A DNA stretch of 38,249 nt, from NCBI GenBank assembly GCA_902517495.1, contig CABYCO010000011.1:1-38249 (forward strand), in the 5' to 3' direction. Of the stretch, positions 591-16,273 are shown piece by piece. This DNA comes from an uncultured Pelagibacteraceae bacterium (GTDB lineage Bacteria; Pseudomonadota; Alphaproteobacteria; Pelagibacterales; Pelagibacteraceae). Numbering within the stretch: the first letter of the stretch is position 1; every line of letters starts with the position of its first letter. Both the position numbers and the translations under genes were made by a program. The notes beneath the pieces are model-generated. The model made no database searches and was not told the origin of the DNA. It saw only the letters and a list, made by a program, of their open reading frames with translations.

Positions 591-791
591 ATGAAAAAAA
601 AGAATACAGATTATTACAATAAAATAATCAATAAAATTGAAAAAATAAGAGGGAAAAATAATACTAATTGGATGAATATATTAAGACTTTCATTTAAAAA
701 TGATCCAATAGCAACTTCTAGGATTTTATCTAAAATTTATTTAGATGATAACAGGATAAGTAAACTTGCCAAAAAACTTACAAAAAAATAG
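591..791 (+). CDS. Small basic protein of unknown function upstream of pseI
   Basis: A 66-residue, Lys/Asn-rich, probably helical protein with no signal peptide or membrane segment. Visible features are a central NTNWMNILRLSF stretch and a C-terminal ISKLAKKL helix. It begins 13 nt after the acyltransferase and its last 26 nt overlap the start of pseI, so the genes are probably translationally coupled. The composition is protein-like and the start is a clear ATG. I know no biochemical function for it. My impression that similar short proteins accompany NeuB-family synthases in marine genomes is from memory only. It may be an accessory or stabilising partner of the synthase, which is an inference from position alone. 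Confidence 0.6.
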   Translation: MKKKNTDYYNKIINKIEKIRGKNNTNWMNILRLSFKNDPIATSRILSKIYLDDNRISKLAKKLTKK

Positions 792-1842
792 ATCTTTAAA
801 AATTGGGAAATTTAATTTTAAAAAAGGAAAAACGTTTATTGTCGCTGAATTATCCGGCAATCATAATGGATCATTTAATAGAGCTAAAAAACTTTTAATA
901 AAAGCCAAAGAAAGTGGAGCAGATGCCGTAAAGCTTCAAACTTTTAGTGCAGATTTGATTACACTAAATTCAAAAAAAAATGACTTCAAACTTGACTATT
1001 TAAATAATAAGGAATGGAAGAGATATAAAACTTTTTATTCCTTATATAGTAAGAGTTCTACACCTTGGGATTGGCATCCAAAATTATTTGATTTAGCTAA
1101 AAAAATTGGTATTGAAATTTTTTCCTCTCCATTTGATGAAACTGCAGTAGATTTTTTAGAAAAATTAAAGTGTGTAGCATATAAAATCGCATCACCAGAA
1201 ATAACCCATATTCCTCTTATTACAAAAGTTGCTAAAACTAAAAAGCCAGTGATTATTTCTACTGGACTAGCCTCATTAGAAGATTTAGATCTTGCTATAA
1301 ATACCCTTCGAAAAAATGGATGTAAAAAATTATTTATTTTAAAATGTAATTCTAGTTATCCAGCGCCAATTATAGAAAGTAATTTAAAAAATATTCAGTT
1401 TTTAAAAAACAAATATAATTTACCAATAGGACTGTCCGATCACACTATTGGAGATAATTCAGCTGTAGTTGCTGTATCACTTGGTGCAAAAATTGTTGAA
1501 AAACATTTTAATTTGAAAGATAATCTGACTACAGTAGATTCTTTTTTTTCCTCCAATCAAAACGACTTTCAATTAATGGTAGATAAAATTAGAATTACAG
1601 AAAAAACTTTAGGAAATTATGAGTATACAATCTCGAAATCATCAAAAAAAAACTTTGCATCCAGAAGATCTATTTTTATTTCAAAGAATATTAGAAAAAA
1701 TGAGAGAATAACCAAAGATAATATTAAAGTTGTAAGACCATCATTTGGTCTACATCCAAAATTTTTTCTTAAAGTCCTAGGAAAAAAAGTAAATAAAAGT
1801 TTAAAACACGGTGAAAGATTAAAAATAAAATATTTAAAATAA
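766..1842 (+). CDS. pseI: Pseudaminic acid synthase PseI (NeuB family)
   Basis: This enzyme condenses a 6-deoxy-2,4-diacetamido hexose (6-deoxy-AltdiNAc for true PseI) with phosphoenolpyruvate to form a nine-carbon nonulosonic acid in the cytoplasm. The NeuB TIM-barrel covers residues 20-285. It carries the PseI-type AELSGNHNGS motif (27-36), KLQTF (56-60) and FSSPFDETAVDF (119-130). The likely metal-binding histidines are His226 (SDHT) and His247 (EKHF). A C-terminal SAF (antifreeze-like) domain follows at about 300-358, with RPSFGLHPKF. The length of 358 is close to normal. No ATG fits upstream of the conserved region, so TTG at 766 is the best start, and it overlaps the small gene by 26 nt. 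The choice of Pse over legionaminic or neuraminic product rests on the motif style and on neighbouring pseB and pseC. Confidence 0.9.
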   Translation: MPKNLQKNRSLKIGKFNFKKGKTFIVAELSGNHNGSFNRAKKLLIKAKESGADAVKLQTFSADLITLNSKKNDFKLDYLNNKEWKRYKTFYSLYSKSSTPWDWHPKLFDLAKKIGIEIFSSPFDETAVDFLEKLKCVAYKIASPEITHIPLITKVAKTKKPVIISTGLASLEDLDLAINTLRKNGCKKLFILKCNSSYPAPIIESNLKNIQFLKNKYNLPIGLSDHTIGDNSAVVAVSLGAKIVEKHFNLKDNLTTVDSFFSSNQNDFQLMVDKIRITEKTLGNYEYTISKSSKKNFASRRSIFISKNIRKNERITKDNIKVVRPSFGLHPKFFLKVLGKKVNKSLKHGERLKIKYLK

Positions 1843-1981: not shown

Positions 1982-2992
1982 ATGTCTTTTTTAAAAAATA
2001 AATCCATTCTTATAACTGGTGGAACTGGTAGTTTTGGAAAAGCTTTTTGTTTAAGGTTATTAAAAGATTACAAAGATATAAAAAAAATAATCATATTTAG
2101 TAGAGATGAGTTTAAACAATTTGAGATGGAGAAGTATATTCCAGTAACAGATGTAAATCCTAAGGTGAGATATTTTATTGGAGATATAAGAGACGAGAAA
2201 AGATTAAATAGAGCTATGGAAGATGTCAATATTGTTATCCATGCAGCTGCATTAAAACAAGTTGATAAAGCTGAATATAATCCTCAAGAATACATTAAAA
2301 CAAATATCACTGGTGCCCAAAATGTTATTGATTGTTCAATATCAAATAATGTCTCTAATATCATAGCATTGTCAACTGATAAAGCTTCATCACCAATTAA
2401 TCTTTATGGAGCAACCAAGCTATGTTCTGATAAATTATTCTTAACTGCTAATAACATAAAGGGAAAAAGAAAAATAAAATTTAGTGTTGTTAGATATGGA
2501 AATGTAATGGGAAGCAGAGGTTCAGTTTTGCCTTTTTTTCTTAAACAAAAAAACACTCTGCCAATTACTGATTTAAGAATGACTAGGTTCAATATAAGTT
2601 TAGCGGATGGTGTTGAAATGGTTTTGTGGGCACTTAGAAAAAATATTGGTGGAGAAATATTTGTGCCAAAAATCTCAAGCTTTAAAGTTGTTGATCTTGC
2701 AAAAGCTGTTAACAAAAAAGCTAAAATAAAAGTAATTGGAATTAGACCGGGCGAAAAAATACATGAAGAATTGATTTCAGAATATGATGGAATGAAAACT
2801 ATTGACCTAAAAAATTATTATGCAATTATTAATAACTTTTCTGAAAAAGAAATTGTGCAATACATAAAAAAAACAAATGGAAAAAGAGTAAAAAAGAATT
2901 TTACATATAATAGTTTAAATAATAAAGATTACCTATCAGTTTTAGATTTAAAAAAAGAAGTCAAAAATTTTATTTCAAATTCGAAAATATAA
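1982..2992 (+). CDS. pseB: UDP-N-acetylglucosamine 4,6-dehydratase (inverting), PseB
   Basis: An extended SDR enzyme that catalyses the first step of the CMP-pseudaminic acid pathway: UDP-GlcNAc to UDP-2-acetamido-2,6-dideoxy-beta-L-arabino-hexos-4-ulose. Seen in the sequence are the NAD(P)-binding GGTGSFG (13-19), the FlaA1-type SRDEFKQFEM (40-49), HAAALKQV (87-94), the active-site STDKA (131-135, with Asp133 and Lys134) and YGATK (142-146, Tyr142 and Lys146). The length of 336 is normal for PseB/FlaA1, and there are no N-terminal membrane segments, which rules out the large PglF-type dehydratases. It follows a 139-nt gap and is 16 nt ahead of pseC. Only the details of the downstream product are inferred. 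Confidence 0.93.
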   Translation: MSFLKNKSILITGGTGSFGKAFCLRLLKDYKDIKKIIIFSRDEFKQFEMEKYIPVTDVNPKVRYFIGDIRDEKRLNRAMEDVNIVIHAAALKQVDKAEYNPQEYIKTNITGAQNVIDCSISNNVSNIIALSTDKASSPINLYGATKLCSDKLFLTANNIKGKRKIKFSVVRYGNVMGSRGSVLPFFLKQKNTLPITDLRMTRFNISLADGVEMVLWALRKNIGGEIFVPKISSFKVVDLAKAVNKKAKIKVIGIRPGEKIHEELISEYDGMKTIDLKNYYAIINNFSEKEIVQYIKKTNGKRVKKNFTYNSLNNKDYLSVLDLKKEVKNFISNSKI

Positions 2993-3008: not shown

Positions 3009-4172
3009 ATGATAAAGAAAAAAGTTTTATTAAACTATGGATCGCAAAATTTAAATAATTTAAACTTTAAGAAAATATCTCAAAATTTAATTCAGCAAAC
3101 AATTACTAATGGAAATAATTGTTTAAAATTTGAAAAAAATATTTGTAAACTTACTAATTCAAAATTTGCTGTTGTTTGTAATAATGGTACTTCAGCTTTA
3201 ATGATGTCAATATTGTCGCTTAATATTAAAAATCCAATAGTAATAATACCAAATATAAATTTTGTAGCATCATCTAGTATATTGGCGCTAATGAAGGCTA
3301 AAATTATTCTTTGTGACGTCAATGTAAAAACTGGAATGGTCGATGAAACGTGTTTAATCAGTATTTTAAAAAAATGTAAAAATAAAAAAATTAAACCTAA
3401 TTTATTTATTCCAATCCATTATGCTGGTGATATTTTAAATATGAAAAATCTAAGCATAATCTGCAAAAAAAATAATATAAAAATCATCGAGGATGGGTGT
3501 CATAGTTTTGGGAGTAAAAGTATTCAAAAAAATCAAAGTTATACTGTTGGTCATTCAAAATATTCAGAAATGACAACATTTTCATTTCATCCTGTTAAAA
3601 ATATTACAACAATAGAGGGTGGGGCAATAACAACTAATAACAAAAAATTATATAGAAATTTATTATTGTTAAGAAGTCATTCTTTAGAAAAAACCTTCAA
3701 GTCAGACCCTTACAAAATGTTAAATCCGAGTTTGAATTTTCGAATGGCAGAGATTAATGCTATTATTGGTATAGATCAGTTAAAGAAATTGAGTTACTTT
3801 AAAAAATATAAAAATAATCTAGTCAAAGAATATTTAAATAAATTTAAAAAATTAGAAAATTTTTTTACACCAATAAATTTTATTAAATCTGAAATCTGTT
3901 GGCATATATTTGCTATAAGATTAAAGAATAAATATTTCAATAAAAAAGAAAAATTTATGAACTATTTAAATAAAAATAATATTACAACCCAAATACACTA
4001 CAAACCTATTTATAAACATAATGTTTATAAAAAATTTATAATTTTAAGTGAAAGTTATAATTCGGATATATTTTATAGGTCACAATTGACCTTACCATTG
4101 CATACACAAATGACAAAGAATGAGATTGAGTATGTTTTCAAAAAAATAAATTTATTTTTTTCATCTATATGA
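3009..4172 (+). CDS. pseC: UDP-4-keto-6-deoxy-HexNAc aminotransferase PseC (DegT/DnrJ/EryC1)
   Basis: A PLP-dependent sugar aminotransferase that takes the PseB product and adds an amino group at C4, normally from glutamate. Fold-type I features are the NNGTSAL phosphate-binding stretch (58-64), PIHYAGD (135-141), IIEDGCHSFGS (159-169, Asp162 for the PLP ring) and FSFHPVKNITTIEGG (191-205), in which Lys197 should bind PLP. The SFHPVK..TT.EGG pattern is typical of PseC. The length of 387 is normal. Its stop overlaps the next start by 4 nt (ATGA), indicating coupling. PseG, PseH and PseF are not visible in the window and may lie upstream. Confidence 0.9.
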   Translation: MIKKKVLLNYGSQNLNNLNFKKISQNLIQQTITNGNNCLKFEKNICKLTNSKFAVVCNNGTSALMMSILSLNIKNPIVIIPNINFVASSSILALMKAKIILCDVNVKTGMVDETCLISILKKCKNKKIKPNLFIPIHYAGDILNMKNLSIICKKNNIKIIEDGCHSFGSKSIQKNQSYTVGHSKYSEMTTFSFHPVKNITTIEGGAITTNNKKLYRNLLLLRSHSLEKTFKSDPYKMLNPSLNFRMAEINAIIGIDQLKKLSYFKKYKNNLVKEYLNKFKKLENFFTPINFIKSEICWHIFAIRLKNKYFNKKEKFMNYLNKNNITTQIHYKPIYKHNVYKKFIILSESYNSDIFYRSQLTLPLHTQMTKNEIEYVFKKINLFFSSI

Positions 4173-5189: not shown

Positions 5190-5819
5190 ATGTCAATATC
5201 GCAAAAAAAATTATTTCTTAAATCAGAAGGTGACAATTATTTTTTAAGAAATCAGGAAAAAATACTTAAAAAAGATTTTTCAAAAGATAAAATTACAAAA
5301 ATTCTAAAATCATATCTAAAAAAAAATTCAAAAAAAAAAATTCTAGAAATTGGATGTTCAGCAGGATTAAGATTAAGTTATTTGAAGAAAATATTTACAA
5401 AATCTGATTTTTATGGAATTGATCCTTCAAAAAAAGCAATAAATAGTAATAAAGATAAGTCAATAACACTTAGAGTAGGAACAGCAGATAATATAGCTAT
5501 GCTAAAAAAATACGATTTTATAATTTTTGGATTTTGTCTTTATGTCTGTGATGACAATGATTTATTCAAAATAGCATCTGACACATATAAATTGGCAAAT
5601 AAAAATGCTTACATAATTATTGAGGATTTTGATACTGGTAAAACTATTTATGAAAACTACAAACATAAAAAAGATTTAACTGTAAGAAAAATGAATTATG
5701 CAAAAATATTTACATGGCACCCAAAGATAATTTTAATAAAAAAATATTTTTATAAATTCAAATGGAAACTTAAATCACAAAAAGATAATATTTCAGTGGT
5801 AATTTTGAAAAAAAAATAA
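5190..5819 (+). CDS. SAM-dependent methyltransferase, class I
   Basis: A Rossmann-fold methyltransferase of 209 residues. The SAM-binding motif I is ILEIGCSAG (51-59), followed by the acidic YGIDPS (75-80) at the end of strand 2 and a motif around FIIFGFCLYV. The N-terminal FLKSEGDNYFLRN resembles small methyltransferases that I associate with nonulosonic acid and other sugar clusters. It probably methylates a sugar, or carries out a C- or N-methylation on an intermediate, in the cytoplasm; the substrate cannot be read from the sequence. Its stop shares bases with the ATG of the next gene (TAATG). An 11-base A-tract lies just before motif I at 5330-5340. Confidence 0.82.
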   Translation: MSISQKKLFLKSEGDNYFLRNQEKILKKDFSKDKITKILKSYLKKNSKKKILEIGCSAGLRLSYLKKIFTKSDFYGIDPSKKAINSNKDKSITLRVGTADNIAMLKKYDFIIFGFCLYVCDDNDLFKIASDTYKLANKNAYIIIEDFDTGKTIYENYKHKKDLTVRKMNYAKIFTWHPKIILIKKYFYKFKWKLKSQKDNISVVILKKK

Positions 5820-6673
5820 TGAATTTTGGACTAGGCGCAGCTAATTTTGGATCTTTTTATGGGTCTTATCAATATAAAAAATTTAGCAATACTGACATTA
5901 AAAAAATTATTAATATATCACAAAAAAATAAAATTAATTATGTTGATACAGCAGAAGATTACCGAGGATCTCATAAAATAATAAAAAAAAATTTTTCAAA
6001 TTTTTTAATTATTTCAAAAATAAAAGTTAATCAAAATAATAAAAATTATGAAGTCGACCTAAAAAATAGAGTTGTAAAGCTTAACAAAAAATTTGGATCT
6101 AATCTATATGCTATCTTGATACATAATTTTGATAACTTAGGTATTAGAGCAATTAAAAATTCTTTAAATATTTTAAAACAGGCAAAAGATAGTAGATTAA
6201 TTAAAAAGTTTGGAGTTTCAATATACGATCCAAATAAATTGAAAAATTTAAAAAATATTCGGCCAGATATAATCCAAGCTCCTTTGAATGTTTTTGATCA
6301 AAGATTATTATCTACTAAAATATTAAGAAAGATTAAAAGTCAAAATATTGAATTACATGTAAGGTCGTGCTTTCTTCAAGGAACATTAGTGCAAAATAAA
6401 TTACCAAAACACCTACAAAAGTATTCAAAGGTATTCAATCAATGGATGACACTTTGTAGAATTTATAAAATCAGCCCACTTAAGGGTTGCATTGATTTTA
6501 TTAAATTACATAAAAAAAATATTCGTTTTTTAATTATTGGATTTAACACAATTAAGCAACTTGACGAAATAATAAAAATTTATAAAACAAAAAACAAAAT
6601 TAATTTAAGTGTGTATAATAAATTAAAAAAAAAAAATATTAAAATTATTGATCCAAGAAAATGGCAAAAATAA
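5819..6673 (+). CDS. Aldo/keto reductase family oxidoreductase
   Basis: An NAD(P)-dependent TIM-barrel reductase of 284 residues. All four catalytic positions of the family can be placed: Asp43 and Tyr48 in VDTAEDY (42-48), Lys67 in ISKIKV (65-70) and His102 in ILIHNF (99-104). The end of the protein contains IIGFNTIKQLDEI, the usual cofactor-binding region. It is coupled by a TAATG junction to the methyltransferase and overlaps the next aminotransferase by 13 nt, which suggests that reductase and aminotransferase work on the same sugar intermediate. The substrate is not known. It may also act as a sugar dehydrogenase that produces the keto group for transamination. Confidence 0.88.
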   Translation: MNFGLGAANFGSFYGSYQYKKFSNTDIKKIINISQKNKINYVDTAEDYRGSHKIIKKNFSNFLIISKIKVNQNNKNYEVDLKNRVVKLNKKFGSNLYAILIHNFDNLGIRAIKNSLNILKQAKDSRLIKKFGVSIYDPNKLKNLKNIRPDIIQAPLNVFDQRLLSTKILRKIKSQNIELHVRSCFLQGTLVQNKLPKHLQKYSKVFNQWMTLCRIYKISPLKGCIDFIKLHKKNIRFLIIGFNTIKQLDEIIKIYKTKNKINLSVYNKLKKKNIKIIDPRKWQK

Positions 6674-7992
6674 AAAATAAAAAAAATTCAGGCCAAAAGT
6701 TATGGTTGAAAGGAAAAAAATATATCTTAGGTGGAAATATGTTATTGTCGAAACGGCCAAACCTATTTTTACCAGATCTCTGGCCAACTTATTTTTCAAA
6801 AACTAAATCTTGTTTTATTTGGGACTTAGACAACAAAAAATATATTGATATGTCTTATATGGGCGTAGGTACAAATATATTGGGATATAACAATAATAGA
6901 GTTGATAGAGAAGTAGAGAGAGCAATTAAAAAAGGGAATATTTCTACATTTAATGCACCAGAGGAAGTTGAATTAGCAAGAAAATTAATTTCAATGCATA
7001 AATGGGCTTATAAAGCTAAGTTTGCAAGAACGGGGGGTGAAATAGCTTCTGTAGCAATTCGAATTGCTAGAAATTATTCAAAAAAAAATAAAGTAGCTAT
7101 TTGTGGATACCATGGATGGCATGATTGGTATTTATCAGCAAATATAAATAAAAAGTCATCCTTAAAAAATCATCTTTTTGATCAATTAAATATAGGTGGT
7201 GTGCCAAAAGAATTTGGGAAACTAACTTTTTCCTTCGAATATAATGATTTTGATAGTCTGTTAAAGGTCTATAAAAAAAATCCAGATATTGGAGTTATAA
7301 TTATGGAGGTCAAAAGAAACTTTAATCCAAAAAAAAATTTCTTAAAAAAAATAAAAAATTTCTGTACTAAAAATAAAATAGTACTGATTTTTGATGAATG
7401 CACATCTGGTTTTAGAGAAAATTTTGGTGGATTACATTTAAAATATAAAATAATTCCAGATATAGTATTATTTGGAAAAGCATTAGGAAATGGTTATGCC
7501 ATTACGGCTCTTCTAGGAAATAAAAAGGTAATGAAAGAGGCTAATGATTTATTTATTAGTAGTACATTTTGGACAGAGAGAATTGGAAGCGTTGCTGGAC
7601 TTGCAACTCTAAAAGAGATGAAAAGAATAAAGTCTTGGAAAAAAATAACAAAAATTGGAAAAATTATCAAAGAAAAATGGAAACGTATTTTTGACAAATA
7701 TTTAATTGAATATGAGATTAAAGGCCTAGACTCGATAGTATCGTTTGAGTTTAAAAGAAAAAATTTTAATGTATATAAAACCTTTATTACACAAGAGATG
7801 TTAAAAAAGGGAATTTTAGCCAATAATTCAATTTATGTAAGCATAGATCATGATAATAAAATCTTAAAAAAATATTTTGTAGAATTTGAAAAAGTGATTA
7901 AAAAAATACAAATCTTAGAACAAAAAGGAATAAAATTGGAAAAGCTCTTAGAAAGCAAAGCATCATCTCTAGGCTTCAAAAGATTAAATTAG
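6661..7992 (+). CDS. Class III aminotransferase (glutamate-1-semialdehyde aminomutase-like)
   Basis: A PLP-dependent class III aminotransferase of 443 residues. Seen: the N-terminal KKYILGGNMLLSKRP stretch typical of the GSA-aminomutase branch, ARTGGEIAS (122-130), GYHGWHDW (149-156), IFDECTSGFR (243-252, Asp245 over the PLP ring) and FGKALGNGYAITALLG (271-286), where Lys273 should bind PLP. True HemL is a haem-pathway housekeeping enzyme; divergent sequence and this location point instead to an amino-sugar role. The gene starts inside the aldo/keto reductase end (13-nt overlap). It ends 7 nt from the convergent cytidylyltransferase gene. The inferred role is amino transfer to a keto-sugar in the second nonulosonic or deoxy-sugar pathway. 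Confidence 0.85.
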   Translation: MAKIKNKKNSGQKLWLKGKKYILGGNMLLSKRPNLFLPDLWPTYFSKTKSCFIWDLDNKKYIDMSYMGVGTNILGYNNNRVDREVERAIKKGNISTFNAPEEVELARKLISMHKWAYKAKFARTGGEIASVAIRIARNYSKKNKVAICGYHGWHDWYLSANINKKSSLKNHLFDQLNIGGVPKEFGKLTFSFEYNDFDSLLKVYKKNPDIGVIIMEVKRNFNPKKNFLKKIKNFCTKNKIVLIFDECTSGFRENFGGLHLKYKIIPDIVLFGKALGNGYAITALLGNKKVMKEANDLFISSTFWTERIGSVAGLATLKEMKRIKSWKKITKIGKIIKEKWKRIFDKYLIEYEIKGLDSIVSFEFKRKNFNVYKTFITQEMLKKGILANNSIYVSIDHDNKILKKYFVEFEKVIKKIQILEQKGIKLEKLLESKASSLGFKRLN

Positions 7993-7999
7993 TTTAAAG

Positions 8000-8719
8000 C
8001 TATTTTATAAAATTTTTATTTTCTTTAAATAAAATTCTAGCTTTTTGAAGATCTTGATAAGTATCCACATCTGCTGCATAGAAACCCTTTATTAAGTATC
8101 CGTATATTTTTTTTCCTGAAAGAGATTTTTTTTGAGGTTTAAAATTTATTTTAAAAAATTCAAAATTTCCTGCTTGAAAATATGATTGTGGCAATTTTTG
8201 TCTAGGAATATTGTAGTGCTCATATAATCCGCTATTTATAATGGGTTTAATTAAATTACCTCTTTTTTTCCACATCCGGTATGGTGTCTGAGGGGCAATG
8301 GTAATTGCTCTCATAGAATCGTGCTTTGATGCTTTGAATTTTTTATATGCATCGTTTATAATATCGTAATTTCTGAAAGGGGCAGTGGGTCTTAGTATTA
8401 CACCATACTTAAATTTTATACCTTTATTAAAAAAATAGTTTATTGAATGATTTACAAATGTAATGTCAGTCGCAAACTTTCCAGAAATATTCTTAGGTCT
8501 CAAAAAAGGAACTTGGTGTTTTAATTTTTCAACAATTTTTTTTATTTTTTTGCTGTCCGTTGAGCAGATAATTATTTTGGATTTATCTCTAATCTTTTCA
8601 CCTGCTTTTAATGAGTAATAAAGTAAAGGTTTGTTTCCTAGTTTTTCTATATTTTTATTTTTTAATCCTGTACTACCACCTCTAGCTGGCACAATCACTA
8701 ACAAGTTTTTTCTTATCAT
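8000..8719 (-). CDS. Acylneuraminate cytidylyltransferase (NeuA/PtmB-like CMP-sugar synthetase)
   Basis: This enzyme activates a nonulosonic acid with CTP to give the CMP-sugar donor. The GT-A-like nucleotidyltransferase fold is recognisable from PARGGSTGLKNKNI (11-24), FLRP (72-75), LRPTAPFR (109-116) and the late PRQKLPQSYFQAGNFEF region. The length of 239 residues fits the single-domain PtmB/LegF/NeuA type. It is coupled to the upstream SDR gene by a TAATG overlap at 8719, a pairing like ptmA and ptmB of Campylobacter. It ends 7 nt from the aminotransferase on the other strand. Whether it activates the product of PseI, of the second synthase, or both cannot be told from sequence. Confidence 0.88.
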   Translation of the reverse strand: MIRKNLLVIVPARGGSTGLKNKNIEKLGNKPLLYYSLKAGEKIRDKSKIIICSTDSKKIKKIVEKLKHQVPFLRPKNISGKFATDITFVNHSINYFFNKGIKFKYGVILRPTAPFRNYDIINDAYKKFKASKHDSMRAITIAPQTPYRMWKKRGNLIKPIINSGLYEHYNIPRQKLPQSYFQAGNFEFFKINFKPQKKSLSGKKIYGYLIKGFYAADVDTYQDLQKARILFKENKNFIK

Positions 8720-9480
8720 TAAATAATATTAGTCGCTCCTCCATCTATTATAAAGTTTGAACCTGTAGTATAAGTATTCTTTTCAGATATAAAAAATTCT
8801 ATATATTCATTATATTCATTTGCACTTGCCATTCTTAACATAATAGTTTTATTAGAATAATTTTTTGAAAAATAATGATCTTGCTTTTTATTTTTTACTC
8901 CTCCAAAAACAAGACAATTAACTTTAATATCTGTTCCACTATAAAAAGCAGCTAAAGATTTTGTAAAACCTAAAATTCCAGACTTTGCAACTGAGTATTC
9001 TATTGGTTTTGTGCCAAAGTATTTTTTTTTATTTTTGGCATAAATATTTTGATTTGGGCCAACTAAACTATATATTGATGAGATATTTAATATTATTCCT
9101 TTATTTTTTTTTTCAAAGTGTTTCAAAAGATGTTTTGACATTAAAAATGATCCATTAAGATCAACACTAAGTCCTTTTTTCCAAATCTCATAACTATAGT
9201 TTGAAAATTTATATCTACTGAGCTTACCCTCAACTTTTGGATTTGAGCTTGCATTATTAATCAAAACATCAACTTTACTTTTCATCAAAACACTTTTAAT
9301 TGTTTGAATAACAGAATTCTCGTCAGTAATATCGCATCGATAATAATTCTTTCTTCTTATATTTTTTAAGTCTAAGCAAAACACTTTATGTCCTTTTTTT
9401 TCAGCAAATTTTCTAAACGATCTGCCAATTAATCCCTCAGAACCAGTTAGAACGATATTTTTGGGTGTTGTAGTCATCAA
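8719..9480 (-). CDS. Short-chain dehydrogenase/reductase (PtmA-like position)
   Basis: A classical SDR of 253 residues. The cofactor motif is VLTGSEGLIGRSF (10-22), NNAS is at 75-78, and the catalytic residues are Ser134 (NISS), Tyr162 and Lys166 (EYSVAKSG). The C-terminal TGSNFIIDGG is the usual SDR ending. It is immediately upstream of, and coupled to, the CMP-sugar synthetase, so it probably oxidises or reduces a precursor of that sugar. In Campylobacter an SDR (PtmA) is paired with PtmB in the same way; equivalence is an inference. Its ATG is only 24 nt from the divergent ATG of the second synthase gene. Confidence 0.85.
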   Translation of the reverse strand: MMTTTPKNIVLTGSEGLIGRSFRKFAEKKGHKVFCLDLKNIRRKNYYRCDITDENSVIQTIKSVLMKSKVDVLINNASSNPKVEGKLSRYKFSNYSYEIWKKGLSVDLNGSFLMSKHLLKHFEKKNKGIILNISSIYSLVGPNQNIYAKNKKKYFGTKPIEYSVAKSGILGFTKSLAAFYSGTDIKVNCLVFGGVKNKKQDHYFSKNYSNKTIMLRMASANEYNEYIEFFISEKNTYTTGSNFIIDGGATNII

Positions 9481-9504
9481 AAATATATATATACGTGTCT
9501 AGGA
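9481..9504. promoter_or_regulatory. 24-nt divergent spacer between the SDR and neuB-like gene
   Basis: Two start codons on opposite strands are only 24 nt apart, and the spacer is mostly alternating A and T. Two normal promoters cannot fit side by side here, so at least one must lie inside the other gene or the two must overlap. AGGA touches the + strand ATG, which is too close to act as a normal ribosome binding site. No operator symmetry stands out. Confidence 0.35.
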
Positions 9505-10371
9505 ATGAAAACAAATCAGAATTTAAAAAAATTAAAAAAACCCTTTTTAATTGCTGAAATTGGAATTAATCATAATGGCAGCATTCAGCTTGCAAAAAAA
9601 TTAATAGATTTAGCAGCAAGATATAAATTTGACTGTGTAAAATTTCAAAAAAGAACTCCTGAAATTTGTACACCGGAACATCAAAAAGGTGTTATTCGAG
9701 AGACCCCCTGGGGACAAATGACTTATCTAGAATATAAAAAAAAAATAGAATTTAATTTAAGTGATTATAAAATAATTGATAATTACTGTAAAAAGAAAAA
9801 AATTAAATGGTTTGCATCTTCTTGGGATAAAAACAGTCAAAAAATTATGAGAACTTTTAATAGTAAATTAAATAAAATAGCCTCTGCAATGATTACTAAT
9901 TTAGATTTTTTAAAATATGTAGCATCAGAAAAAAAAAAAACATTTATTTCTACTGGGATGACAAGTATTAAAGATATTGAAAATGCAGTAAAAATTTTTA
10001 AAAAAGCCAAATGTCCATTCGTCCTTTTACATTGTGTATCAACGTATCCTTGTCCAGAAAAAGATTTAAATTTAAATGTAATAAGAACACTAAAAAATAA
10101 ATTTAAGTGTGAAGTTGGATATAGTGGACATGAAAGTACTGTTTCTCCTTCAGTCCTTGCCTGGTATCTCGGTGCAACAGTGATTGAGAGGCACATCACT
10201 TTAGATAGATCAATGTGGGGCACGGATCAATCAGCTTCTTTATCAGAAGAGGGAATAAGAAATCTGACAAGTGTAATTTATAAAACCCCGGAAATTTTAG
10301 GAAATGGTTTAAAAAAGTTTTCTCATAATGAAAAAAATATTTCAAAAAAATTTCGATACTGGGAAAATTAG
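9505..10371 (+). CDS. Second NeuB-family nonulosonic acid synthase, without SAF domain
   Basis: A PEP-dependent nonulosonic acid synthase of 288 residues. The NeuB barrel is shown by IAEIGINHNGS (16-26), VKFQKRTPEI (45-54), IRETPWGQMTYLEY (64-77), FISTGM (147-152), HCVSTYPCP (176-184), YSGHE (206-210, His209) and the ERHITLDRSMWGTDQ region (228-242, His230). It ends right after the barrel, so the C-terminal SAF domain found in PseI and classical NeuB is absent. This shorter form is a known subgroup, so it need not be a truncation. It is the only + strand gene between 8000 and 14460. It has a 24-nt divergent junction at its start and a 1-nt convergent junction at its end. The product sugar is unknown. 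Confidence 0.87.
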   Translation: MKTNQNLKKLKKPFLIAEIGINHNGSIQLAKKLIDLAARYKFDCVKFQKRTPEICTPEHQKGVIRETPWGQMTYLEYKKKIEFNLSDYKIIDNYCKKKKIKWFASSWDKNSQKIMRTFNSKLNKIASAMITNLDFLKYVASEKKKTFISTGMTSIKDIENAVKIFKKAKCPFVLLHCVSTYPCPEKDLNLNVIRTLKNKFKCEVGYSGHESTVSPSVLAWYLGATVIERHITLDRSMWGTDQSASLSEEGIRNLTSVIYKTPEILGNGLKKFSHNEKNISKKFRYWEN

Positions 10372-10372
10372 A

Positions 10373-11311
10373 TTAGACTAATTTAAAAGTTTTGAGCATT
10401 TCAAATGAACTTACAATGTTAGGTTGAATTCTTTTCTTATTTTTTATTGCACTTATAAAGTACTTTATTTCTTCAACAAATAAATCATTCCTTTTAAATT
10501 TTTTAAATTTTTTTATTTTCAAAGATTTTAACTTATTAATTGAGAGCTCATTTTTATAATAATCAAATTCTAGGACACCATCAGTTCCATATATATTCAA
10601 TTTTCTAGTAGGCTTTTTTTGTAAATAATCTAAATGAATATTTCCAATAATATTACCTCTAAATTCTACCAATATATCAACAGCACTTTCAGCATTTATT
10701 TTAAGTGAATTTATTTTACTTTTAATTATGTTAACTTGTTTCACTTCCCCAAATAGATATTTAGCTAAATCCAGATCATGACTTAGTGTAAGTGCTGCTC
10801 CACCCCCCATACTCTTATTGGCAGCATAGCTTTTTTTGTAATTTTCATTTTTGTGCCAATAAGGCAAGTATTCACCCCACATAAAATTAAAATGAAAAAT
10901 TTGCCCTAAAGATTTTTTTTTTAAAATGTTTTTTATTATCTTCATAGCTGGATGAAATCTCATCATATAACCAACCATATTAATATTATTTGGATATTTT
11001 TTTATTATATTTTTTAAGGTCACAAGTTTTTTTCTATTATACCCAACTGGTTTTTCTAAAAATATATTGATATTTTTTTTTATTAACTTAATTGCAGTTA
11101 TTTCATGTAGATGTGTTGGATTACAAACTATTGCTAGATCTATTTTCATTTTTAATGCTTCATCAATAGTTTTAAATATTTGAATTTTTTTAAACTTGAC
11201 TGGTATAAACTTTCTAGCAGATACAATTAATATATCTTTGTAACCTAAATTTATTAAATTATCTAAATGCCTTTGACCAATTGAACCTAATCCACAGATT
11301 AAAATCCTCAT
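10373..11311 (-). CDS. Gfo/Idh/MocA family NAD(P)-dependent oxidoreductase (pair 1)
   Basis: A two-domain sugar oxidoreductase of 312 residues. The N-terminal Rossmann motif is ICGLGSIGQRH (5-15), CNPTHLH is at 63-69, and the family's conserved EKPVG is at 86-90 with the catalytic-lysine position at Lys87. A later GGGAALTLSHDLDLAKYLFG region belongs to the C-terminal substrate domain. Members usually oxidise or reduce hydroxyl or keto groups on sugars or inositols. It lies 7 nt after the radical SAM gene and is probably cotranscribed with it. The pairing suggests that it reduces or oxidises a radical SAM product, which is an inference. It ends 1 nt from the convergent synthase gene. Confidence 0.86.
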   Translation of the reverse strand: MRILICGLGSIGQRHLDNLINLGYKDILIVSARKFIPVKFKKIQIFKTIDEALKMKIDLAIVCNPTHLHEITAIKLIKKNINIFLEKPVGYNRKKLVTLKNIIKKYPNNINMVGYMMRFHPAMKIIKNILKKKSLGQIFHFNFMWGEYLPYWHKNENYKKSYAANKSMGGGAALTLSHDLDLAKYLFGEVKQVNIIKSKINSLKINAESAVDILVEFRGNIIGNIHLDYLQKKPTRKLNIYGTDGVLEFDYYKNELSINKLKSLKIKKFKKFKRNDLFVEEIKYFISAIKNKKRIQPNIVSSFEMLKTFKLV

Positions 11312-11318
11312 TTGATGG

Positions 11319-12371
11319 TTAATTTCTGGGAATTTGATTATTTGGGTATATTAAATTTACACAGTCATTACATGTTTTATCTAAATAGAATTCTCCTCTT
11401 TTATGAAGATCTCTAATATTATTCATTTTTTCAGAATTCCATGCTTTGTGAATTGCACCTTTTTTTCCTATTTGGCCAATGATTAGATTTTTATTAAAAC
11501 TCACACAACATGGCGCTATAGACTGATTTTTTATAACAACTCTCTGAAATGGTTGAACACATTTAAATTCATTAATGGGCTCACTGTTTAATTGATCTGT
11601 GGAGTAATAAATTTTATATTTATCAATATTTGGAGTTGGTGGGACATAAGTTTGAACTGATATCATATCCACTTTATTCTTCCAAAAATTTATAAAATCA
11701 TCTAATTCGTGTTCATTTTGTTTCATTTTGCAAAAACTTACACCTACTAATGGTAATTTATAATTACCTTTAGCCCTTAATTCTAAAAAAGTTTCTATGT
11801 TTCTAATAACTCTTTCTAAAGGAATGCTGCCAACTCTTACTTTAGAATATGTTTCAGGAGTATGCGCATCTAAACTAAATCTCAATCTAGTCAAGCCAGA
11901 GTCAAGTACTTGAGAACTTCTCTTACTTGTTAAGGCGGATCCATTATTATTAAGCATTATATCAATGAAACCCTTATTATGTGCATACTCAATGTATTTA
12001 TGTAAATCTTTAATTAAAAAAGGTTCGTTATTTCCCTGTGGCTCCATTGAAGGACAATTATGCTCTGATCCTTCATCAATAATTTTTTTAAAACTATCAA
12101 AATTTATATAGTCTCCCTCGTAATATTCCTTAACTTCTGCAGGTGTTCCAATTATACAATGCGGACATTTATAATTGCACTCTTGATTCATATCCAAATG
12201 AAGAAATAGTGGGAAATCTGTAACTATCTCCATGTTGTTTGCTTTATCCCACTCATCTCTATAGTCACTAAATTTTTTTCCAATTATTTCAGCAAGTCTT
12301 AAATTAACATCCTTCTCTGAACTAAGTGTTACTACTTTACCATCAGTTGTATATGAGCTTTTTTTTGTCAT
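11319..12371 (-). CDS. Radical SAM/SPASM enzyme (pair 1)
   Basis: A 350-residue radical SAM protein. The [4Fe-4S] SAM-cluster motif is CNYKCPHC (Cys65, Cys69, Cys72). A second, SPASM-type cluster domain is indicated by Cys271, Cys288-Cys289, Cys334 and Cys337. Between them are PQGNNEPFL (111-119), in the place of the usual GGEP, and RFSLDAHTPETY (164-175). The GGEP-like motif is therefore altered (NNEP). It starts at a TAATG overlap with the upstream Gfo/Idh/MocA gene. SPASM enzymes act on peptides or on small carbohydrates and aminoglycosides. With no precursor peptide or protease nearby, a sugar substrate is more likely here. The reaction is unknown. Confidence 0.85.
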   Translation of the reverse strand: MTKKSSYTTDGKVVTLSSEKDVNLRLAEIIGKKFSDYRDEWDKANNMEIVTDFPLFLHLDMNQECNYKCPHCIIGTPAEVKEYYEGDYINFDSFKKIIDEGSEHNCPSMEPQGNNEPFLIKDLHKYIEYAHNKGFIDIMLNNNGSALTSKRSSQVLDSGLTRLRFSLDAHTPETYSKVRVGSIPLERVIRNIETFLELRAKGNYKLPLVGVSFCKMKQNEHELDDFINFWKNKVDMISVQTYVPPTPNIDKYKIYYSTDQLNSEPINEFKCVQPFQRVVIKNQSIAPCCVSFNKNLIIGQIGKKGAIHKAWNSEKMNNIRDLHKRGEFYLDKTCNDCVNLIYPNNQIPRN

Positions 12372-13309
12372 TAATAAATTTTTTTTAAAAGATATTTATT
12401 TGATAGAATAGACAATTGATTTTCTTTCTTTAAAAATTTTTTTTTATTATCAACTACTTTAATAAAATATTTAACACTTTTTCTCAATGAATTATCGTAA
12501 TCTTTTTCTTGTTGAAAACTCTCCTTAAATAGTACTTTAGGAGCAGAAAAATAACCCTTTTTGTCAAAAGTGTCCCTAGGTCCTCTAAAAATTATATATT
12601 TATTATTAATTTCCAATATACCATTTTCATATATAAAATTAAATTTTTGTTCATAAGGAGAAGTGTAACTAGTAAAACAATCAACTTGACCAAATTCTTT
12701 TAAAATTATTGAAAAATAAGCATTATCAGGTGATTTTTTTTTTAAAAAACTATCTAATTTTGTTTCAATTTTTTGAATCTTAAAATTATTTAAAATTAAG
12801 TCTATTAAATGAATACCCAAAACTTCATAAACACCTTTTCCTTGCTTATTATTTCTCCAGCTATTTCTAAATTTTTTTTTCGTTGCTAAACCATGTCCAA
12901 AAACAATATTTCCATACAATAACTTACCAAATTTATATTTTCTTGTTTTTTTTATAGATTCATTAATTTTAGAAAATCTGTAATTATAATTAAAATAAAC
13001 TCTTGAAATATCTGTATTTTTTAAAAAATTTAATTGATTTAGTTTATCAACTGGTGGCTTTTCACAAAATATGAACCTATTTTTTTTTAATGTTTTTAAA
13101 TATTGAAAATGTGTTGAATTTGGTGATAGGATAAAAATAGTATTGCACTTTTGTATATCTTTAAAATCATTAGAAATAATTTTATTTTGATCAGTTTTAT
13201 ATTTTATTTTAAAAATTGTTTCTATATTTTCGTTTAATGATTTTAGTATTTTAATTATTCTTTTAGCTTGAGAGCCATACCCTATTAGTCCAATTTTTTT
13301 GGAATTCAT
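12371..13309 (-). CDS. Gfo/Idh/MocA family oxidoreductase (pair 2)
   Basis: A 312-residue oxidoreductase whose N-terminal nucleotide-binding motif is GLIGYGSQAKR (7-17), with SPNSTH at 62-67 and the conserved EKPP at 83-86. It is clearly different in sequence from the other Gfo/Idh/MocA protein in this operon although of the same length, so it is not a recent duplicate. Both ends use one-base TAATG overlaps with the two radical SAM genes, so its translation is tied to theirs. The inferred job is NAD(P)-dependent oxidation or reduction of a sugar handled by one of the radical SAM enzymes. Confidence 0.82.
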   Translation of the reverse strand: MNSKKIGLIGYGSQAKRIIKILKSLNENIETIFKIKYKTDQNKIISNDFKDIQKCNTIFILSPNSTHFQYLKTLKKNRFIFCEKPPVDKLNQLNFLKNTDISRVYFNYNYRFSKINESIKKTRKYKFGKLLYGNIVFGHGLATKKKFRNSWRNNKQGKGVYEVLGIHLIDLILNNFKIQKIETKLDSFLKKKSPDNAYFSIILKEFGQVDCFTSYTSPYEQKFNFIYENGILEINNKYIIFRGPRDTFDKKGYFSAPKVLFKESFQQEKDYDNSLRKSVKYFIKVVDNKKKFLKKENQLSILSNKYLLKKIY

Positions 13310-14460
13310 TAATTAAATTCTATACCACACCTATCACATGGGGTTACTTTTGTTCTTTTTCCTTCAAGATGTTTTTCTCTTAATTCTTCAATAGCTCTTC
13401 CATTCCAAACTTCTAAAATAGATTTTTCTTTTACATTTCCATAACTTAAGTAGCTCTTATAATCAGCGTCACACGGATTTACTTTTCCATCATGCCATAC
13501 ATACATTCTATCCCATAAAAAGGAGCATGGGCTTTTAACATTCTCTAATATTGAATTATTATAAGTATCCCACCTCTCAACAGGATCTGAAACAGAAACA
13601 TTGTCACTTATTGGTTTCCAAAAATCCTCAAATTTTTTTCTATCTAAATCTTTATAAAAATCTACGCCCGAAATTCTAATCTCAGTTTCAGCATCTTTAT
13701 AAAAATCATTTCTAATTGAATAAAGAAGTTTGACATTACTTACTATTTTTTCATAATTAGCATTTTTTCTAAGTTCCTCAAATGTTTTTTTTTCATAATG
13801 ATCTGCAGATATTACTACAGTTGAAACATTTGATTTATAAATTTCGTGACATATTTTTTCATCTAAACGTGTAGCATTAGTATTAATTTTAAATTCAAAT
13901 ATATTTTCTTTTTTAGAAATGTAATTTAACATTTCACAAAATTGAGGATGCATTGTGGGCTCACCTCTACTTGCTAAAGTTATAGCCCCAACACCTATTT
14001 TATCTGCTTCATCAACAACTTTTGTAAATAGATCCCACTTCATTATTCCCATGAACGGTTTTCTTGTAAAAGTAGTGTCTATTTGAAAACACATTGGACA
14101 TCTTAAGTTACATGCTGCGTTGGGTTCAATTAATAAATAAGGGGGAAAATTAAATAGTTTTTTTCTACTACTTGCTAAGTAAAAATTATATCTAAATTGA
14201 AGATATTTTAATACCTTTTTCAAATCGGTAAACCGTGAAACTTTAAACATTTCCACATAGTTGAAAAAATCTAAAGTTTCTTTCTCATGACTAATTATTT
14301 CCAGAAATTTTTTATCATACTTTCCCAAATCTATTGTTTTAATTAATTGTCTTAATTCTGATAAAATATCTCTTAAATTAGACATGTTTAATCTCTGGCC
14401 AATTATTCTTTGGCCATAATTATTCATATATGGAGCTATCTTGTTTTCAATTTCTGACAT
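13309..14460 (-). CDS. Radical SAM/SPASM enzyme (pair 2), first gene of the - strand operon
   Basis: A 383-residue radical SAM protein with an N-terminal extension of about 105 residues that I cannot assign. The SAM-cluster motif is CNLRCPMC (Cys117, Cys121, Cys124), with ASRGEPTMHP (163-172) as the GGEP-type motif. SPASM-type cysteines are Cys312, Cys330 (in a NPCDADY context), Cys375 and Cys378. It is the first gene of a tight - strand series (radical SAM, Gfo, radical SAM, Gfo) and starts 58 nt from the divergent ABC transporter gene. The sequence differs strongly from the other radical SAM protein, so the two probably catalyse different steps. A sugar substrate is inferred from context only. 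Confidence 0.86.
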   Translation of the reverse strand: MSEIENKIAPYMNNYGQRIIGQRLNMSNLRDILSELRQLIKTIDLGKYDKKFLEIISHEKETLDFFNYVEMFKVSRFTDLKKVLKYLQFRYNFYLASSRKKLFNFPPYLLIEPNAACNLRCPMCFQIDTTFTRKPFMGIMKWDLFTKVVDEADKIGVGAITLASRGEPTMHPQFCEMLNYISKKENIFEFKINTNATRLDEKICHEIYKSNVSTVVISADHYEKKTFEELRKNANYEKIVSNVKLLYSIRNDFYKDAETEIRISGVDFYKDLDRKKFEDFWKPISDNVSVSDPVERWDTYNNSILENVKSPCSFLWDRMYVWHDGKVNPCDADYKSYLSYGNVKEKSILEVWNGRAIEELREKHLEGKRTKVTPCDRCGIEFN

Positions 14461-14518
14461 ATTCTAGGTATACATTAACGGTGTTTATATATATTTAAAT
14501 ATTTAACATATTTTTACA
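14461..14518. promoter_or_regulatory. Divergent promoter region between the radical SAM operon and the export operon
   Basis: These 58 nt separate two outward-facing operons: the radical SAM series on the - strand and the 17-gene run on the + strand. Promoters for both are expected here. The sequence is nearly pure A and T with TATA-like steps in both directions, so several -10-like boxes exist and none can be singled out with confidence. Confidence 0.4.
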
Positions 14519-16273
14519 ATGGATAGTATATTAAATCTAAGGTCATTATTATCAGATAAACTTAAATTTCAATCCATATTAGCAGCGTTTCTAATGATAA
14601 TTGTGTCAATTGCTGAAACATTAGGTATAGCTTTGTTGGTTCCTATATTAACTTCTTTAGTTAGTTCTAAAAATTATGTTTTAATTTTTTTAAAAGATAA
14701 TTTTGAGGCTTTTGAATTGATTTCAAAAAATAATTTTATTTTATTTAGCTTTATTCTAATAATTATAATTTATGCTTTTAAAAACTTATTCTTACTATTT
14801 TTCTTAAATTTTAGGTCTTTCTTCGAAGCAAATTGTCAAAAATATTTTTCAAATAAATTATTTGAAAATTATTTAAATAATTCTTATGAGTTTCACATGT
14901 CCAATAATTCATCAATACTATTGAGAAATATTACAACTGAAACAGATAATATTAAACATGCATGTAATGCAAGTATTTCATTGCTTGCAGAAATATTTAT
15001 CCTATTTGGAATAATTTCTTTTTTACTATTTTTTGACTTTAAATTTACAATAGTGTTACTAATTTTATTATCAATAGTAGCTGGCTTCTTTTTGATTTTG
15101 ATTAAACCAAAAATAAATTCTTGGGGTAAGAAAAGACTCGATGAAGCTGGAAAAATAAATAAAAAGGTAACCGATAGTCTTCAAAATATTAAACTAATAA
15201 AACTTTGGAAAATTGAAAAAAAATTTTTGGAAAATTTTTATACAAGCAATTCCAATAGAACTGAAATGGTACGAAAATTAAGTTTCTTTAATGGAGTGCC
15301 TAGAATTTTTTTTGAAAGTATTTTAATTTTTGGAATATTAACTTTCTTTTTATTTTCGTTCTTTACTGGAAAGTTAGTATCCGAAATTTTTATATATCTT
15401 ACTGTTTATGGTGTATGTGCCTTAAAAATAATACCTTCATGCAACATTATTTTTAATTCAATAATTTCAATTCAGTTTACCAAACCATCTATTGAGAAAA
15501 TTATAAGCGAATTTGATAGAAGCCCCAATATAATAAATAAATTGGGTAGAGAAGAAATTTTAATGAATTTTGAAAATAAATTAAGTTTGCAGAACGTAAG
15601 TTATTTGTACCCAAAAACTAAAAATAGTGTCTTAGAAAAAATTAATATAGAAATTTTTGAAGGTGAAAAAATTGGTATTTTTGGACCTAGCGGAGCAGGC
15701 AAAAGTACATTTATAGATTTAATTATGGGTATAATAAAGCCCTCTAGTGGAGATATACTCGTCAACGATAACAAACTATTAAATCATTTTGATTATTCAT
15801 GGAGAAAAAATATAGGTTATATTCAACAAAATATATTATTGTTTGATGATACACTGATCAGCAACATAATTTTAAATTCAAACAATGATTTTAACCAAGA
15901 CAAATTAAATATCGTATTAAAAAGATCTAAAGTTTCAACTTTCGTTAGTGATTTACCTGAGGGTTTAAAAACAAATTTAGGGGAAAGAGGTCTAAAAATT
16001 TCTGGGGGACAAAGGCAAAGGATTGGTATTGCAAGAGCTCTTTATCATGACCCTGAAATACTTATATTAGATGAATCCACTAACCAACTTGATGCAAAAA
16101 ATGAAAAAGATATTATTCAAGATATTTTTAAAGAGTTCAAACAAAAAACTATTTTAATGATCTCCCACAATTATGAGTTACTTAAAAAATGTGACAAAAT
16201 CATTCATATGGATCAGGGTAAGATTATCAATATTGAAACTATCAATGAAAAAAAAAATATTAATAATAATTAA
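14519..16273 (+). CDS. ABC exporter, fused permease and ATPase, PglK/MsbA-like flippase
   Basis: A half-transporter of 584 residues: an N-terminal membrane domain with about six hydrophobic segments (roughly 18-48, 72-98, 152-200 and 262-310) and a C-terminal ATPase. The nucleotide-binding domain has Walker A GPSGAGKS (389-396), a Q-loop near IQQN (435-438), signature ISGGQ (494-498), Walker B ILILDE (514-519) and the H-loop histidine His550. The type fits lipid-linked oligosaccharide flippases (PglK) or MsbA. The polysaccharide context favours flipping of an undecaprenyl-linked glycan across the inner membrane. It is the first gene of the long + strand operon, and its last 29 nt overlap the next gene. 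A general lipid exporter is the alternative. Confidence 0.88.
   Translation: MDSILNLRSLLSDKLKFQSILAAFLMIIVSIAETLGIALLVPILTSLVSSKNYVLIFLKDNFEAFELISKNNFILFSFILIIIIYAFKNLFLLFFLNFRSFFEANCQKYFSNKLFENYLNNSYEFHMSNNSSILLRNITTETDNIKHACNASISLLAEIFILFGIISFLLFFDFKFTIVLLILLSIVAGFFLILIKPKINSWGKKRLDEAGKINKKVTDSLQNIKLIKLWKIEKKFLENFYTSNSNRTEMVRKLSFFNGVPRIFFESILIFGILTFFLFSFFTGKLVSEIFIYLTVYGVCALKIIPSCNIIFNSIISIQFTKPSIEKIISEFDRSPNIINKLGREEILMNFENKLSLQNVSYLYPKTKNSVLEKINIEIFEGEKIGIFGPSGAGKSTFIDLIMGIIKPSSGDILVNDNKLLNHFDYSWRKNIGYIQQNILLFDDTLISNIILNSNNDFNQDKLNIVLKRSKVSTFVSDLPEGLKTNLGERGLKISGGQRQRIGIARALYHDPEILILDESTNQLDAKNEKDIIQDIFKEFKQKTILMISHNYELLKKCDKIIHMDQGKIINIETINEKKNINNN

Follow-up and report, generated by a model that had tools for sequence, protein, structure and literature searches.

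What do radical S-adenosylmethionine (SAM) proteins do in a gene cluster for surface sugars? The question is raised by a 38,249-nucleotide stretch of DNA from an uncultured Pelagibacteraceae bacterium (contig CABYCO010000011.1 of assembly GCA_902517495.1; the whole stretch is called the window here), in which four minus-strand genes follow one another in the order radical SAM, Gfo/Idh/MocA, radical SAM, Gfo/Idh/MocA. A preliminary description of this DNA had tentatively read them as two modules within a nonulosonic acid locus, each consisting of a radical SAM protein and its own reductase. We find that the first pair, rSAM_A and GfoA (pair A), is a true conserved two-gene module, whereas the second, rSAM_B and GfoB (pair B), looks like a one-off that is not conserved. 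Together, rSAM_A and GfoA probably reshape an unusual acidic sugar.

The open reading frames (ORFs) and Pfam matches confirm the order, strand and coordinates of the four genes as first described; they are listed here with the stretch ahead of the first:

14461–14518, no strand: divergent intergenic stretch of 58 bases, which we infer to be the likely start region of a four-gene operon
13309–14460, minus strand: rSAM_A, predicted twitch-type radical SAM protein of 383 residues (Pfam, cysteine alignment, PDB profile, fold)
12371–13309, minus strand: GfoA, predicted diverged Gfo/Idh/MocA oxidoreductase of 312 residues and conserved partner of rSAM_A (Pfam, alignment, adjacency, model)
11319–12371, minus strand: rSAM_B, second predicted twitch-type radical SAM protein, 350 residues (Pfam, cysteine alignment, PDB profile)
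10373–11311, minus strand: GfoB, predicted Gfo/Idh/MocA oxidoreductase of a different subfamily, 312 residues (Pfam, NCBIfam, locus comparison)

The genes had been described as mostly joined by one-base overlaps. Such overlaps are present at two of the three junctions, rSAM_A/GfoA at 13309 and GfoA/rSAM_B at 12371, but rSAM_B and GfoB are separated by 7 bases (11312–11318). A scan for promoters and terminators gave no more than shuffled sequence does, promoter-like sites in positions 7900–14700 being no commoner than expected by chance.

Conservation of the two pairs

Among 147 genomes of the window's family, close relatives of rSAM_A (E <1e-120) are found in five, and matches with E up to 1e-20 in 24. 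GfoA (E up to 1e-12) is present in exactly the same five genomes as close rSAM_A. The probability of this full coincidence arising by chance is 1.9e-9, or 5.5e-8 without the window's own genome. A search of 397 genomes with rSAM_A gave 27 with matches at E up to 1e-55 and contributed one further paired locus, L088; a contig scan with the same protein gave three loci, with L003 the one good relative. In an across-phylum sample of 299 genomes, rSAM_A matches with E up to 1e-25 occur in ten and rSAM_B matches in five, the window's own genome being counted in each.

The genes flanking rSAM_A relatives were compared across 152 loci containing 2,407 ORFs. A Gfo gene lies downstream of rSAM_A in all nine of the top-scoring rows, which include the window and two IMG/VR contigs. 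It is the next gene in eight of them and the second in L092, where an 88-residue ORF intervenes. Eight of the nine partner proteins group with GfoA; that of L091 belongs to a different Gfo subfamily, and its profile comparison with GfoA is weak (probability 5%). Across the eight loci with GfoA, the protein distances of rSAM_A and GfoA are correlated with r = 0.98 (Mantel p = 4e-4). The nine-row score group comes from a profile built on the paired rows, and the gap that delimits it (537 versus 435 bits) is therefore partly present by construction; identities to the window query, which are independent of the profile, place the unpaired L086 (46%) above the paired L088 (42%). NeuB is encoded on the fetched stretch in seven of the nine paired loci, compared with 4 of 14 unpaired ones, and on the same record in eight of the nine, since the NeuB gene of L092 lies elsewhere on its record; the exception, L027, is a 14-kb contig.

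The results for rSAM_B are different. None of its four close relatives (43–68% identity: L039, L083, L082 and L029) has a Gfo gene of its own nearby. No Gfo gene is closer than seven genes to any of them, and that of L029 pairs with the locus's rSAM_A. L039 and L083 are near-copies, so that these loci represent about three independent cases. Besides the window, the 397 genomes contain only these four and five weaker matches to rSAM_B. The rSAM_B–GfoB pairing was seen only in the window, GfoB itself not having been searched genome-wide; GfoB belongs to a Gfo subfamily other than that of GfoA. We therefore reject the picture of two equal pairs. The preliminary description had proposed conservation of the neighbours in related genomes as a check on both modules, and its idea of a radical SAM protein with a dedicated reductase survives this comparison for pair A but not for pair B. 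In the latter, another BtrN-like enzyme, rSAM_B, has probably been joined by a reductase, GfoB, that was recruited locally.

One alternative to a module is that both pairs are chance neighbours in an island that shuffles surface-sugar genes. Pair B, with no Gfo gene of its own near rSAM_B in any of the four relatives, fits this explanation, but the unbroken adjacency in nine rows and the identical presence in five genomes contradict it for pair A. We consider it highly improbable as an account of the locus.

Some further genes stand out at these loci. Genes for B12-binding radical SAM proteins adjoin or lie near the rSAM_A/GfoA pair at L028:10784–12388 and L029:14233–15918. Directly beyond GfoA in L028 (2933–8635, minus strand) is an ORF of 1,900 residues whose only Pfam match is a NeuB domain close to the N-terminus, a possible giant fusion of a ulosonic-acid synthase. 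In six of 25 listed loci (L028, L029, L039, L048, L051 and L052), a winged-helix gene (∼100 residues) occurs together with a gene for a protein of 165–167 residues, one copy of which was scanned and gave no Pfam match.

Fold and conserved residues

Both radical SAM proteins exceed the gathering cut-off of Radical_SAM PF04055 (29.5 bits), rSAM_A with 62.4 bits and rSAM_B with 39.2 bits, and that of PF13186, with 50 and 29.6 bits, respectively. The CxxxCxxC motifs were correctly described as intact: Cys117/121/124 of rSAM_A and Cys65/69/72 of rSAM_B, the SAM-cluster triads, show no variation among the 19 and 11 proteins aligned. In the same alignments, each protein has four more invariant C-terminal cysteines, at positions 312/330/375/378 in rSAM_A and 271/288/334/337 in rSAM_B, where Cys289 is nearly invariant. 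These cysteines had been called SPASM-type. Because there are four invariant auxiliary cysteines per protein, both sequences instead fit a one-cluster twitch domain, as the twitch domain is defined in PMC9012708, and not a two-cluster SPASM domain.

The best PDB profile match of both families is BtrN (E 1e-21 for rSAM_A and 1.8e-26 for rSAM_B), with the next-best entries at 1e-10 and 9e-18, and the SAM-cluster and auxiliary-cluster cysteines of both families align on those of BtrN. A model of rSAM_A with a predicted local distance difference test (pLDDT) score of 78 matches BtrN with a Z score of 20.9 and a root-mean-square deviation of 2.9 over 232 of 246 residues, which ties for the highest fold score. 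The parallel with BtrN drawn in the preliminary description thus holds. BtrN is a twitch enzyme of the butirosin pathway that oxidizes a cyclitol alcohol; four cysteines ligate its auxiliary cluster, a likely electron acceptor, whereas in MoaA one site is left open (PMC9012708). The resemblance extends to the CxxxCxxC motif and all four auxiliary cysteines (PDB 4m7t/4m7s), but identity over the fold is only 17–19%, rSAM_A has an N-terminal extension of ∼100 residues, a Gfo reductase is dedicated to it, and its setting is that of a sugar acid where BtrN serves an aminocyclitol antibiotic.

For GFO_IDH_MocA PF01408 (gathering cut-off 24 bits), GfoB scores 46.6 bits and GfoA a marginal 25.5 bits. 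The EKP motif is present in both proteins, as had been stated, and in GfoA the lysine of this motif (K84) and H167 are invariant in all seven aligned sequences. GfoA reached no cut-off in the NCBIfam scan. Its model (pLDDT 74) adopts the Gfo/Idh/MocA fold, with Z scores up to 18.8. Oxidoreductases of this family (GnnA, WlbA, KijD10, RgNanOx and inositol dehydrogenases) fill most of the best 50 rows (Z 17.4–18.8), but GfoA is remote from them, with 9–18% identity in those rows, and differs at a catalytic position discussed below, which makes its chemistry tentative.

Candidate chemistry and exchangeable partners

Our leading proposal, which we hold tentatively, is that the two enzymes of pair A form a tailoring module in a pathway to a CMP-activated ulosonic acid and carry out an oxidation followed by a reduction with inversion. 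It starts from what is observed: the genes and their motifs, a pairing that is conserved and co-inherited, an association with genes for NeuB and cytidylyltransferases, and a recurrent carbonyl-using enzyme downstream. In the scheme that we infer from these, rSAM_A would act as a twitch radical SAM dehydrogenase of the BtrN kind, whose 5′-deoxyadenosyl radical abstracts hydrogen at a carbinol carbon, either of the acid sugar or of a precursor to it. The second [4Fe-4S] cluster would accept the second electron, leaving a ketone, and GfoA, encoded by the next, overlapping gene, would reduce this ketone with NAD(P)H from the opposite face. The net result would be a one-way, SAM-driven inversion of a hydroxyl center, and the module would be a radical counterpart of the EpaA/EpaB-type two-oxidoreductase inverters of nonulosonic acids.

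EpaA (CTP_transf_3 plus aldo/keto reductase) and EpaB, a short-chain dehydrogenase/reductase (SDR), convert pseudaminic acid (Pse) into its 8-epimer and are encoded by a prophage of Acinetobacter baumannii (PMC12053666). Among sugars of this kind, they are the nearest experimentally tested parallel. Like pair A, they are products of two linked, phage-carried genes of nonulosonic-acid metabolism, one of which encodes a reductase type. EpaA also includes a fused CTP_transf_3 domain, and relatives of rSAM_A often have a CTP_transf_3-type gene directly upstream. The similarity is one of logic alone, since EpaA and EpaB are an aldo/keto reductase and an SDR with no radical SAM component, whereas pair A combines a radical SAM protein with a Gfo protein. 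By analogy, the layout of cytidylyltransferase, radical SAM and SDR or Gfo genes looks like the EpaA/EpaB set with a radical enzyme in the seat of the oxidase.

The main rival to this scheme is a radical deoxygenation, in which rSAM_A would dehydrate a vicinal diol and GfoA would reduce the resulting ketone to give a deoxy sugar, the parts played by AprD4, on paromamine, and by AprD3. AprD4 and AprD3, a radical SAM enzyme and an NADPH-dependent reductase, carry out the C3′ deoxygenation of apramycin biosynthesis on a sugar (PMC5461906), and, compared by description only, they share with pair A the use of a radical SAM protein with a dedicated reductase. Known nonulosonic acids such as Pse are, moreover, deoxy sugars (PMC3765264). 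AprD4 is a diol dehydratase, however, and dehydration is redox-neutral and should need no electron acceptor, yet four auxiliary cysteines are invariant in both rSAM families. PDB profile searches of both families to E 0.01 returned no entry named AprD4 or AprD3. We favor oxidation because the auxiliary-cluster cysteines are conserved and the fully Cys-ligated cluster of BtrN is a likely electron acceptor in that enzyme, and we regard deoxygenation as doubtful.

The relatives of rSAM_A provide a second view of the chemistry. In a tree of 61 rSAM rows, eight of the nine paired rows share a group of 11 (98/91) with L086, L087 and L030, which have no Gfo neighbor; the inner fork uniting the eight is weak (91/31). 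The remaining paired row, L088, is sister to 11 unpaired rows, so that at least two changes are required to explain the pairing, perhaps two losses of an ancient pair or two separate gains. The three close unpaired relatives adjoin a gene for a DegT aminotransferase in place of Gfo.

Within the 23-row rSAM_A clade, the downstream gene encodes a Gfo protein in nine rows, a classical SDR in five, a pyridoxal phosphate (PLP)-dependent aminotransferase in four and a TIM-barrel isomerase in two; the gene falls outside these classes in L089, L038 and L086. A carbonyl-type partner of one of the four classes is therefore found in 20 of 23 rows, compared with 3.7 expected from each locus's own make-up, and Gfo and SDR partners alone account for 14 versus 1.8 expected. 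A cytidylyltransferase gene lies directly upstream in 11 of the 23 (2.1 expected), and all 11 are in the 12-row group of L088 and its sisters. The random-gene nulls of the downstream and upstream tests ignore relatedness, and the downstream test skipped genes of <150 residues. The tree, the score ranking of rSAM_A rows and the 23-row counts left out short 4-kb loci, which are mostly duplicates of wider stretches. Eight non-duplicate short loci (L064–L071), 36–40% identical to rSAM_A and about 56–70% identical to rows of the 23, served as a held-out set. With the classes fixed, all eight fit (SDR in four, class I/II aminotransferase in three, isomerase in one), although they are related to the other rows and are thus not eight independent events, and all eight have a cytidylyltransferase gene directly upstream. 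A cassette recurs in this bacterial family (L064–L071, L031–L038, L055 and L089), consisting of genes for an extended SDR, a cytidylyltransferase and an rSAM_A-like protein, followed by an SDR, class I/II aminotransferase or TIM-barrel isomerase.

The recurrence of these partner classes fits a ketone that is handed to exchangeable partners. It is a fair possibility, though short of an even chance, that the BtrN-like rSAM clade supplies SAR11 bacteria and some viruses with a modular 'ketone maker' that works on acid sugars activated by CMP; the fit of all eight held-out loci speaks for it. A single scaffold of a radical oxidase, in many loci preceded by a cytidylyltransferase gene, would then be combined with Gfo or SDR partners that invert the center or with PLP enzymes that aminate it. 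rSAM_A–GfoA would be the most fixed form of this arrangement, epimerizing an acid sugar of the cell surface in one direction at the expense of SAM, and phages could carry the pair to re-dress their hosts.

The same partner data bear on the possibility that rSAM_A makes a ketone at a branch point, mainly for amination or some other change, with GfoA in a different role, for example oxidizing another position or restoring a side product. BtrN itself feeds an aminotransferase. The DegT aminotransferase gene is downstream of rSAM_A in the sister rows L030 and L087 and upstream in L086, class I/II aminotransferase genes are downstream in L034, L036, L064, L067 and L068, and the window holds genes for class-III and PseC-like aminotransferases. 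Aminotransferases alone are, however, not clearly enriched downstream (4 versus 1.6 expected in the 23 rows, p 0.06), and the pairing and co-inheritance of rSAM_A and GfoA argue for one shared intermediate. We consider a branch point unlikely and retain oxidation followed by inverting reduction as the preferred scheme.

Several observations weigh against that scheme. In fold, among the matches listed, the score of BtrN is tied by the peptide maturases SuiB (20.9) and SkfB (20.6) and by the radical SAM enzyme DesII (20.1), and a control, the distant outgroup twitch protein L133, likewise matches BtrN best. The BtrN match therefore places the fold and not the reaction, and we take it neither as proof of function nor as specific to the rSAM_A and rSAM_B families; the model makes the fold class of rSAM_A firm, but not its reaction. 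On the reductase side, the usual catalytic triad of Gfo/Idh/MocA enzymes is Lys/Asp/His, with the Asp four residues ahead of the His. GfoA has a valine at the usual Asp position, with an acidic residue one place earlier in six of seven sequences, so that a shifted alignment might account for it; the difference concerns mechanism more than fold. The top four fold matches of the GfoA model are to Gal80p, a transcriptional regulator of Gfo/Idh/MocA fold, although these tie with many oxidoreductases. Finally, the choice of partner classes was made with the 23 rows already in view, and all rows, including the held-out ones, are related by descent. Four relatives from outside the family, which are not in the tree, have downstream an SDR gene (L203), a HAD hydrolase gene (L202) and another rSAM-like ORF (L204 and L205).

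The tie with peptide maturases also bears on whether the rSAM proteins could be SPASM-type maturases of a peptide or partner enzyme, found among sugar genes only incidentally. The best NCBIfam score of both proteins is indeed to a maturase, that of a tungsten enzyme (TIGR04317; 96.8 bits for rSAM_A and 78 bits for rSAM_B), but it is far below the cut-off of 380, and among the best 25 of 41 families for rSAM_A and the best 25 of 28 for rSAM_B none reaches its own cut-off. The C-terminus fits a one-cluster twitch domain, and the lasting neighbors are sugar-acid genes. The preliminary description had named a grouping with peptide-modifying enzymes as evidence against a sugar module; no such grouping appears at the cut-offs of these best-scoring families, whereas by fold SuiB and SkfB tie with BtrN. 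Taken together, these results make a maturase role very unlikely.

The surrounding island and its spread

The source genome (1.05 Mb in 46 contigs, 79% complete) has as its best named relative at this locus the uncultured Pelagibacteraceae AG-470-I07, with 60% identity, and for this reason the window (G+C content 24%) is taken as a SAR11-type surface-sugar island. The other features considered are as follows:

766–1842, plus strand: NeuB1, full-length synthase with a SAF domain, distinct from NeuB2
1982–2992, plus strand: PseB-like dehydratase, named by sequence resemblance, without a Pfam scan
3009–4172, plus strand: DegT-type (PseC-like) aminotransferase, named in the same way
5190–5819, plus strand: methyltransferase with weak likeness to a pseudaminic acid-associated methylase (Pfam, NCBIfam)
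5819–6673, plus strand: aldo/keto reductase (PF00248), a domain type present in EpaA too (Pfam)
6661–7992, plus strand: class-III (HemL-like) aminotransferase (Pfam, NCBIfam)
8000–8719, minus strand: PseF-like cytidylyltransferase (CTP_transf_3; Pfam, NCBIfam)
8719–9480, minus strand: SDR oxidoreductase (adh_short_C2), the domain type of EpaB (Pfam)
9505–10371, plus strand: NeuB2, synthase of the NeuB family in a short form that gave no SAF hit; its gene converges with that of GfoB (Pfam, NCBIfam)

The assignment to a nonulosonic acid locus is borne out by NeuB (PF03102, 234 bits), with NeuB1 carrying a SAF domain, and by the cytidylyltransferase (PF02348, 63 bits), as well as by the SDR and the class-III aminotransferase. 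The domain types of EpaA and EpaB, aldo/keto reductase, cytidylyltransferase and SDR, are present as separate genes (Pfam). At the end of the island, positions 36921–38129 (minus strand) encode a GatZ/KbaZ-like tagatose-bisphosphate aldolase subunit.

The island holds two NeuB types, with and without a SAF domain hit. The short NeuB2 and the SDR resemble, by description, SfmA and SfmC of the Shewanella oneidensis flagellin glycan, a 290-residue NeuB-domain protein and an oxoacyl-acyl carrier protein-reductase-like (SDR-type) protein encoded in one operon (PMC3765264). That operon differs in having genes for a thiamine pyrophosphate enzyme, a methyltransferase and an ATP-grasp protein, and the portion of PMC3765264 describing it names no radical SAM or Gfo protein. 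SIS_2 genes neighbor NeuB2-like genes in other genomes, and transketolase and/or SIS_2 genes recur by or near genes for short NeuB or rSAM_B-like proteins (L003:6635–8503, L117:9447–11776, L124:4680–7021, L048, L049, L050 and L196). This recurrence hints that some short NeuB proteins may use aldose phosphates in place of sugars derived from UDP-N-acetylglucosamine. A SIS_2 route supplying NeuB2 in this strain is not supported, as the SIS_2 isomerase has no match in the window's own genome, at its 79% completeness.

Two paired loci come from IMG/VR contigs. L092 (rSAM_A 44% and GfoA 30% identity) is on a 106-kb contig with phage-like genes for a lytic tail/endolysin-type protein, an RNA ligase, a phosphoesterase and a GIY-YIG protein. 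The contig also has an EF-Ts-like gene, which is not expected in a phage. Elsewhere on this contig, which includes L196 as well as L092, genes for a short NeuB and a SIS_2 isomerase lie side by side, and SDR and cytidylyltransferase-like genes are close to them. L091 is on a 47.8-kb contig where genes for a cytidylyltransferase, DegT aminotransferase, SDR, rSAM_A (50%), Gfo protein and NeuB stand in a row; the ORFs scanned there include no phage hallmark gene. A tblastn search with rSAM_A of 50,697 phage records at E 1e-8 gave no match, and the link to viruses therefore rests on these two contigs. A viral scan with GfoA confirmed a distant locus, L112, among the matches listed and missed the known copy in L092.

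In the literature searched, which was open-access full text, no radical SAM enzyme is described in a nonulosonic-acid pathway, and the words 'radical' and 'Gfo' are absent from the main text of a survey of Vibrionaceae (PMC7371886). What appears to be new here, judging from sequence, is thus the pairing of a reductase with a radical SAM protein of twitch type that resembles a dehydrogenase, in a pathway for which that literature describes none. Few bacteria on Earth are as abundant as those of the SAR11 group (PMC7029224), and phages are likely to meet their surface sugars early on. The exchange of partners within one rSAM clade makes the reaction testable, because the same oxidized intermediate would be expected with each partner. 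If the pair works as proposed, it would give direct access to the question of how new acid sugars originate and how viruses could trade the tools for making them.

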